A stretch of 64,000 nucleotides of DNA from Thomasclavelia spiroformis DSM 1552. Its GTDB lineage: Bacteria > Bacillota_I > Bacilli_A > Erysipelotrichales > Coprobacillaceae. The stretch's first letter is position 1; every line of letters starts with the position of its first letter. The translations under genes were made by a program, and so were the position numbers. Under the pieces are notes generated by a model. The model was not told the DNA's origin, made no database searches, and saw nothing but the letters and a program-made list of their open reading frames with translations. Where the stretch lies: assembly GCF_025149465.1 (NCBI RefSeq), contig NZ_CP102275.1, positions 434,001-498,000 of the forward strand. The letters run 5' to 3'. Positions 50,900-52,420 of this stretch are shown here, in pieces.

Positions 50900-51186
50900 A
50901 TACAACTTTATCTTAAACTATTCCAATAAATAATAAAATTATGCGTTAGATAGTGAGTTGTTTTGAAAGCGTAATTTTTTTCAAATTAGCAAAAAAGGCT
51001 ATTCTCATTAGCAAAACATTAAAAAGCTTGCGAATTTTTATTAGCGATGTTTCTATATAAGATGGGAAAAAGTGAAGTGTTATTGTATAACATTGTTTCC
51101 TATATTTTTGATAATTTGTCAAAATTGGCAAAAAATATAAAAACCGAAAAGCTCCAAATAAATAAAGGCTTTTCGGTGATTTCCAA
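50900..51186. other. Gap without a supported gene
   Basis: Both strands lack a credible frame. A short stem AAAAGC...GCTTTT lies just before the tRNA 3' end at 51149-51174 (CCGAAAAGCT / AGGCTTTTCGG), which could be the tRNA terminator on the minus strand. Confidence 0.4.
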
Positions 51187-51261
51187 TGGCCTCCCTAGTA
51201 GGAATCGAACCTACAACTAGTCCTTAGGAGGGACTTGTTATATCCATTTAACTATAGAGAG
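51187..51261 (-). tRNA. tRNA-Arg (anticodon CCT)
   Basis: A complete cloverleaf on the minus strand: acceptor CTCTCTA/TAGGGAG (one T-G pair), D stem GTTA/TAAC, anticodon stem AGTCC/GGACT around loop CTCCTAA (anticodon CCT), T arm GTAGG TTCGATT CCTAC, discriminator G and encoded CCA. It reads AGG arginine codons. Confidence 0.93.
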
Positions 51262-51334
51262 ATAAGTATGAAAGATGGGCAAAGATAGCGCTAAATTAAC
51301 ATCAAACGTCAAAAAGGACGAGTGCACCTGTCGT

Positions 51335-51371
51335 TTAGGAGGGTTCTGTTATCCATTTAACTAACGAGGAA
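51335..51371 (-). repeat. Displaced tRNA-Arg 5' half, copy 1
   Basis: On the minus strand TTCCTCG (acceptor), GTTA...TAAC (D stem), GAACC and CTCCTAA (anticodon loop) follow in correct order; then homology ends and the 3' half is absent. Confidence 0.8.
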
Positions 51372-51431
51372 TAATGTTTATTTGTTGTTATAGGTGGTTA
51401 AATAACACTATCTATAACACATTTTAACAGA

Positions 51432-51554
51432 TTGTAGCGTAAATTTCCATCTCTTAGGAGGTGACTGCATCTTTAATTATGCTGCGAGGACCTATTTGAT
51501 TTTAAAACTTTTATCTATAGAAATGTTTTAACTTAAAAGAAGTTTACGCTACAA
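51432..51554. repeat. 12-bp inverted repeat flanking half-tRNA copy 2
   Basis: TTGTAGCGTAAA (51432-51443) and TTTACGCTACAA (51543-51554) are perfect inverted repeats placed either side of the half-tRNA at 51454-51491. Confidence 0.6.
51454..51491 (-). repeat. Displaced tRNA-Arg 5' half, copy 2
   Basis: GTCCTCG acceptor, GCAT...ATGC D stem, GTCAC and CTCCTAA, then unrelated sequence. Same break point as copy 1. Confidence 0.78.
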
Positions 51555-51682: not shown

Positions 51683-52420
51683 ATGAAAAAAGTTGTAGAA
51701 GTGTGCTGTGGAGGTTATTATGATGCTTTACAAGCTAGTCATGGAGGAGCATCACGAATTGAATTAAATAGTGCTTTACATATGGGTGGACTTACACCAT
51801 CATTAGCTACTTTATTAAAAGTTAAAGAAGAAACAGATTTAGAAGTTATTTGTATGGTTAGACCTCGTGGTGCAGGTTTTTGTTATAGCGATGAAGATTT
51901 TGAGGTTATGAAGTTAGATGCTGAAATATTGTTAGATAATGGTGCTGATGGTATTGCTTTTGGATGTTTGGATGAAGAAGGCGATATTAATATTATTCAA
52001 ACTAGAGAAATGGTTAATATTATTAAATCATATCATAAAACAGCTGTTTTTCACCGAGCTATAGATTGTGTTAATGATATTGATGAATCAATGAATATTT
52101 TAATTACTATTGGGATTGATCGTATTTTAACTAGTGGTTTACAAGCTAAAGCATCATATGGAAAAGAGATGATCAAATATTTACAAGAAGCTTATGGTAA
52201 TAGTATTGAAATATTAGCAGGTAGTGGAATTAATGCTTTAAATGCAAAAAGATTAATGGACTATACAGGTATTAGTCAAGTTCATAGTTCTTGTAAAGAT
52301 TGGTTACTAGATAGTACTACTAGTAGAGATGAAGTTGATTTTAGTTATCATGGTGATGAATATGATGTTGTTAGCTATGAACTTGTAGAAAATCTAGTTG
52401 ATATAGTTGAAGATGAATAA
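51683..52420 (+). CDS. cutC: CutC family protein
   Basis: 245 residues, TIM barrel. VVEVCCGGYYDALQASHGGASRIELN at the start, CMVRPRGAGFCYSD and AVFHRAIDCVND match CutC, once linked to copper handling; its catalytic role is not settled. AAGGAG leads in. It starts a run of closely packed plus-strand genes. Confidence 0.93.
   Translation: MKKVVEVCCGGYYDALQASHGGASRIELNSALHMGGLTPSLATLLKVKEETDLEVICMVRPRGAGFCYSDEDFEVMKLDAEILLDNGADGIAFGCLDEEGDINIIQTREMVNIIKSYHKTAVFHRAIDCVNDIDESMNILITIGIDRILTSGLQAKASYGKEMIKYLQEAYGNSIEILAGSGINALNAKRLMDYTGISQVHSSCKDWLLDSTTSRDEVDFSYHGDEYDVVSYELVENLVDIVEDE

Follow-up and report, generated by a model that had tools for sequence, protein, structure and literature searches.

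The window analysed here, a stretch of 64,000 nucleotides from Thomasclavelia spiroformis DSM 1552, corresponds to positions 434001-498000 of the 2.53 Mb single-contig genome of this bacterium. Read along the minus strand, it contains a displaced 5' half of a tRNA-Arg gene (half 1), 82 nt of spacer, a second displaced 5' half (half 2), a further 73 nt and an intact tRNA-Arg(CCT) gene, with the start of a CutC-like gene just beyond half 1. The features of the locus, in window coordinates, are as follows.

51683 to 52420, plus strand: CutC-like gene (open reading frame), a conserved neighbor that anchors the locus and lies outside the element; homologues occupy the same place in G002, G003, G006 and G007.
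51454 to 51491, minus strand: displaced tRNA-Arg 5' half 1, GTCCTCG...CTCCTAA, the putative oldest scar (direct reading and alignment to a half from another genome).
51372 to 51453, minus strand: 82-nt spacer from half 1 to half 2, by its position and by analogy the candidate left-end arm of a first element.
51335 to 51371, minus strand: displaced tRNA-Arg 5' half 2, TTCCTCG...CTCCTAA (profile match, E = 3.4e-4).
51262 to 51334, minus strand: 73-nt putative left-end arm of a second element (42-nt ungapped match to an arm in G007).
51187 to 51261, minus strand: intact tRNA-Arg(CCT) gene (ARAGORN and Rfam), probably brought complete by the second element.
51138 to 51178, minus strand: terminator-like hairpin ACCGAAAAGC...GCTTTTCGGT and a run of T after the tRNA (direct reading).
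50980 to 51048, minus strand: three copies of GCTAAT, probably left over from arm-type sites of an integrase, the sole such cluster in the window.

ARAGORN identified the intact gene (51261-51187) as tRNA-Arg(CCT), and Rfam scored it as a tRNA at 63.4 bits, with no second tRNA detected beside it in the Rfam scan of the locus. A profile built from 68 tRNA-Arg 5' halves of other loci recovered the intact gene at E = 1.3e-9, along with half 2, as its sole significant matches in the window; the rest of the 64 kb scored no better than E = 16, and the best match in the reversed sequence had an E of 3.4. Half 1, which is more decayed and is without GGATA, was missed by this profile. When it was aligned to a real half from another genome, GTCCTCGTAGCATAGCTGGATAATGCAATCGC, a reference that was added by hand after half 1 had been inspected, none of 2,000 shuffles scored as well. 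CTCCTAA occurs 14 times in the window, and the three copies at the locus have the most tRNA-like 5' sides (scores of 13, 17 and 30, with the others at 9 or below). Direct reading, ARAGORN, Rfam and the profile thus confirm what a sequence-only reading of this DNA had proposed, namely two tRNA-Arg(CCT) 5' halves that end at CTCCTAA and stand 5' of one intact tRNA-Arg(CCT). The figure of about 110 bp between copies given in that reading is correct as the distance from core to core; the gaps themselves measure 82 nt behind half 1 and 73 nt behind half 2.

No CCT copy other than the intact gene was found among the tRNA-Arg genes of this genome. The genome also has two tRNA-Arg(TCT) genes, and this pair may be able to read AGG as well. 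A 12-base inverted repeat on the minus strand (TTGTAGCGTAAA at 51554-51543 and TTTACGCTACAA at 51443-51432) surrounds half 1. Between 48400 and 49250, on the minus strand and 3' of the tRNA, lies a decayed-looking gene with many stops, which by eye is possibly similar to a serine hydrolase or a beta-lactamase.

The same locus was then compared in related genomes. Two of them (G003 and G006) have one intact tRNA-Arg(CCT) beside cutC. In a third (G007), cutC is followed by an old half, an arm, CTCTCTATAGTTAAATGGATATAACAAGTCCCTCCTAA, 65 nt, a different complete tRNA-Arg(CCT) and a gene for a 481-aa tyrosine integrase. The sequence CTCTCTATAGTTAAATGGATATAACAAGTCCCTCCTAA is the 5' half of the intact tRNA of the window and stands there in front of a new complete tRNA and int, so G007 retains as a scar the type of tRNA that the window has intact. 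The window tRNA sequence is also found in G011 and G013 with no halves, arm or int, so a resident gene of this sequence exists. The window's own two halves were found as intact genes in none of the genomes compared. Elsewhere in the genus the cutC locus has a tyrosine-integrase element at exactly this place, and the same is true of this site in unrelated gut Firmicutes. This comparison of empty and occupied sites, which the sequence-only reading had suggested as a check, supports integration scars. The relatives likewise bear out, as the best reading, that a tyrosine recombinase made the crossover at the seven bases CTCCTAA in the anticodon loop. We also observed in G006 (L029/L032, contig C39) a displaced 3' half that starts with CTCCTAAGG beside repeats of TGGCAGTAAAATGGCAGTAA; TGGCAGTAAAATGGCAGTAA also occurs after the intact tRNA of this genome, a sign of another element type at the same tRNA.

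The integrase of these elements (Int) was detected in eight of the 43 genomes of the family (E below 1e-60) and at 21 loci of named genomes; in the living relatives it contains PF00589 and PF14659. Seventeen of the 21 loci display the same arrangement: a host tRNA-Arg 5' half, CTCCTAA, an arm of 33-76 nt, a complete tRNA-Arg(CCT) and int. The four exceptions are a locus with a decayed sequence instead of the half (L073, in G004), a locus at which the contig ends just before the core (L055) and two loci at which the element's tRNA is split (L066 and L075). ARAGORN recognized a tRNA-Arg(CCT) carried by the element at 19 of the 21, and TTGCTAACA repeats were present between the tRNA and int at all seven loci inspected. 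At six loci (in Absicoccus porci, Clostridium porci, C. cuniculi, Erysipelotrichaceae MTC7, G007 and a contig of a 'Spirochaetia' MAG) 1,981 bases are identical from CTCCTAA onward, the whole tRNA included, and the 5' halves in front of them are all different at the five with readable upstream sequence. Because identical DNA stands behind different halves, the junction can be placed exactly and the complete tRNA is the element's own. The 'Spirochaetia' copy (L055) is on a short contig and may be due to a binning error rather than to transfer across phyla.

Among phages and plasmids, every relative of Int was below 60% in identity, the best being four unannotated human-gut 'Bacteriophage sp.' records (39-46%) and two plasmid records (43-45%). 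Close relatives were not found among phages, and a scan of viral contigs with Int returned one weak partial relative.

What became of the rest of the split host gene is evident at the other end of the element, where, or on another contig, matching host 3' halves were found. When the host 5' and 3' halves are joined through CTCCTAA in four genomes (G044, G046, G047 and G051), the result is a tRNA-Arg(CCT) with six or seven of seven acceptor pairs and five of five pairs in the anticodon stem; for G044, the ARAGORN joining used another half of the stack and the stem pairing used the half that adjoins the element. Neither junction alone gives a tRNA in any of the four. The attB and attP sites have 8-10 bp in common, and right-end DNA is common to hosts with different 3' halves (G044 and G051; G048 and G049).

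These results bear on an account, favored in the sequence-only reading, in which the sole tRNA part contributed by each incoming element is a new 5' half, which becomes joined to the resident 3' half, with the displaced 5' half left beyond an element that is later deleted. Such an account fits the window taken alone, and it has a precedent in 159 of the 3,919 islands in Islander, which leave behind a fragment from the 5' side of a tRNA (PMC4383910). In every living example, however, the incoming tRNA is whole, and each of its halves pairs fully with the other (7/7 and 5/5) and not with the host 3' half, which is far away, and the 1,981 bases that are identical across hosts include the whole tRNA. 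For the living relatives the account is already refuted, and as an explanation of the window we consider it highly unlikely. The elements of the relatives instead bring a whole tRNA-Arg 33-76 bp inside their end and split the host gene in two. Nor need elements have been lost from between the copies, as had been supposed, with the remaining element DNA all lying 3' of the newest tRNA. The sequence-only reading had also named an outcome that would count against integration, in which the halves would prove to be decayed full tRNA genes; the relatives instead show the 3' half of the displaced gene at the far end of the element.

A further genome, G049, was considered as a fifth good host pair on the basis of ARAGORN alone and was rejected. 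Its outer halves pair poorly in the stem check, and so its history is more complex. In Sporofaciens musculi (L048 to L106; G048:C2:308694-334659) we observed a host 5' half, a complete restored tRNA, some 2.6 kb of DNA and the 3' half of a tRNA-replacing element, in that order; a small element that seems to restore the tRNA in the classical manner lies in front of a replaced one. Blautia sp. Marseille-P3087 (G050; L079 and L074) differs from the other hosts in that its element is flanked by a host tRNA-Arg(CCT) that is intact and, about 25 kb away, by a displaced 5' half whose sequence near the core is the same.

The element of G047 lies on one contig, with 25.5 kb between the host halves, and encodes a MobT relaxase, a TcpF ATPase, a CD3337/EF1877 protein, NlpC/P60-like and FtsK-like proteins and Int. 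The element of G049 has the same gene set together with TcpC and ArdA. Elements of the ConjTn916 type are defined by Int, a MobT relaxase, a coupling protein and a VirB4-type ATPase between the att sites, and all four are found in G047, where the coupling protein is assigned by FtsK-like similarity that falls below curated cut-offs. By gene content, the elements of G047 and G049 are conjugative elements of this type (Tn916/ICEBs1-like) and, given these conjugation genes, not temperate phages.

Traces of the same left-end organization are found in the window. The 42-nt ungapped match between its second arm and the old arm of G007 was equaled by none of 2,000 shuffles and by 15 of 2,000 AT-rich background pieces, and the displaced halves upstream of the two arms differ. 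The G007 arm also matches an arm of G291, a member of another family. The second arm matches the arms of the best-known elements weakly, and the first (82 nt) has no significant match to any known arm. The hairpin ACCGAAAAGC...GCTTTTCGGT is similar in position and form to CGCTGAAAGCC...GGTTTTCAGC of the living elements; a consensus scan did not name the window hairpin (51138 to 51178) as a terminator. A search for three or more copies of GCTAAY within 70 nt on both strands yielded a single cluster in the 64 kb, with the repeats at offsets of 153, 186 and 208; the spacing is almost that of G289 (156, 189, 210 and 242), and the offsets fall where living elements have their arm-type sites (74-231). 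Searches of the window and its surroundings turned up no integrase remnants, no right end and no 3' halves. We infer that both elements lost what lay 3' of the tRNA by deletion or decay, because precise excision would have restored the older gene and erased the scar, and that the left end was kept as the holder of the only good copy of the tRNA.

Stacks of halves are also present elsewhere. In G242, identity to a known element extends over 112 nt and ends at the CTCCTAA of the element's own tRNA, beyond which are a different arm and another intact tRNA, an arrangement that shows a stack in the making. In C. porci the element tRNA is preceded by three halves, one of which keeps part of a 3' half; G228 has two halves with int, and G147 has two. 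The closest parallel to the window is G223, with three halves and an intact tRNA and with no integrase found in the flank examined. Within the order, 20 of 315 genomes, from 13 of 80 genera, contain a two-core pattern, CTCCTAA-N52..82-GGATA-N8..11-CTCCTAA. Of 392 genomes in a phylum-wide draw, five contain it, all of them members of the order. The pattern is so strict that the window itself does not match it, and the counts include matches at which an integrase was not demonstrated. The reversed pattern was absent from both sets.

The distribution of this pattern is difficult to reconcile with the view that tandem or duplicated tRNA-Arg genes simply decayed in place and lost their 3' halves by chance. 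The halves of the window are indeed decayed, half 1 strongly so, and no element is left beside them. Yet both halves break at the same seven bases, their acceptor strands differ, unlike those of recent duplicates, the second arm recurs in G007 behind a different half, and the pattern is found in 13 of 80 genera with its reversed control at zero. Decay in place is therefore, in our estimation, very improbable. We attach even less probability to the idea that the halves were retained for a role, such as giving rise to half-tRNA transcripts or providing additional attachment sites. The core sequence is kept in the halves, and the attL-like half of Sporofaciens musculi would seem to have been reused by the small element; against this, Rfam detected no family besides tRNA at the locus, except for one below-threshold antisense match over the intact tRNA, and the halves vary between genomes and decay, as in half 1 and its counterpart in G289.

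Rather than decay or retention for a role, we propose the following series of events. An element with a tyrosine integrase would recombine its attP with the 7-bp CTCCTAA in the anticodon loop of the resident tRNA-Arg(CCT) gene and thereby split the gene. The element would supply its own complete tRNA-Arg(CCT), a few dozen base pairs inside its left end, with a terminator, arm-type sites and int beyond it. The former 5' half would remain just 5' of the new tRNA, and the former 3' half would be carried to the far end of the element. Since the new tRNA offers the same target, a second element could repeat the process, and by cutting the new tRNA it would leave the 5' half of that gene one arm's length from the previous half and push the other DNA to the right. 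Because the element tRNA is at the left edge and all else is 3' of it, the halves would stack closely with no need for a deletion between them. At the window, both elements would later have been lost apart from the left end with its tRNA. The site thus very probably represents the stacked left-end scars of two integrations, one after the other, that each replaced the tRNA. The relatives show the anatomy of this process, and the halves of the window presumably have the same origin.

We also lean, with less assurance, toward a broader view in which the tRNA-Arg(CCU) gene, rather than being simply inherited, has been replaced repeatedly in this order of gut Firmicutes by complete copies from conjugative elements. 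The number of stacked 5' halves would then count the replacements that were never undone, and a left end that held the only good copy would be kept after its element died, such that the element's tRNA became the host gene.

The nearest precedent is the tRNA-dependent lysogeny of actinobacteriophages, which has been shown experimentally (Guerrero-Bustamante and Hatfull 2024; PMC10865867). As in those phages, in the living relatives a tyrosine integrase is encoded next to attP, attB lies inside a tRNA gene, neither junction rebuilds a tRNA, a complete tRNA of the matching isotype is part of the element, and the core is short (8-17 bp in the phages, 8-10 bp here). Unlike the phages, the present elements are conjugative elements of Firmicutes that target tRNA-Arg(CCT), and their replacement gene is at the very edge, next to attP, and is itself a target, such that hits stack. 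The Lactobacillus johnsonii prophage Lj965 is cited in PMC10865867 as not rebuilding its tRNA and as carrying a cognate tRNA; the likeness is that of the description given there, and Lj965, unlike the present elements, is a phage.

Classical tRNA-targeted islands (Islander; PMC4383910) likewise have a tyrosine integrase and a tRNA target, and about half of them cross over at the anticodon loop, but their attP carries a piece of tRNA that restores the target, and when examined for this the attP of the present elements did not. Island-mapping tools expect one tRNA and one fragment of the same tRNA; a search of this kind, with a minimum length of 2 kb, would probably miss the present class. With the ConjTn916 superfamily (Tn916, ICESt3; PMC4701971) the elements have in common the MobT relaxase, TcpF ATPase, FtsK-like protein, TcpC, NlpC/P60 and ArdA. 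The streptococcal members insert at tRNA 3' ends, at the ends of housekeeping genes or, for Tn916, at sites of low specificity, and the portion of PMC4701971 consulted mentions no replacement tRNA.

No conjugative element with a replacement tRNA was found in a literature search that covered few subscription papers and is no proof of absence. As far as the literature searched shows, conjugative elements of Firmicutes at tRNA-Arg(CCT), with the replacement gene at the very edge and with stacks of 5' halves that record the repeats, are new. They would extend to conjugative elements of gut Firmicutes a principle shown experimentally only in actinophages. From the stacked halves, the succession of integrations at a single site can be read, and the swapping of a housekeeping tRNA gene by mobile DNA complicates its treatment as a vertically inherited gene.

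Finally, we note that integrases of 40-46% identity are encoded at three loci (L040, L041 and L042, in G005, G025 and G021, respectively) beside displaced 3' halves that start with CTCCTAA, with no intact tRNA nearby. These loci are perhaps a related type of element with int at the other end.
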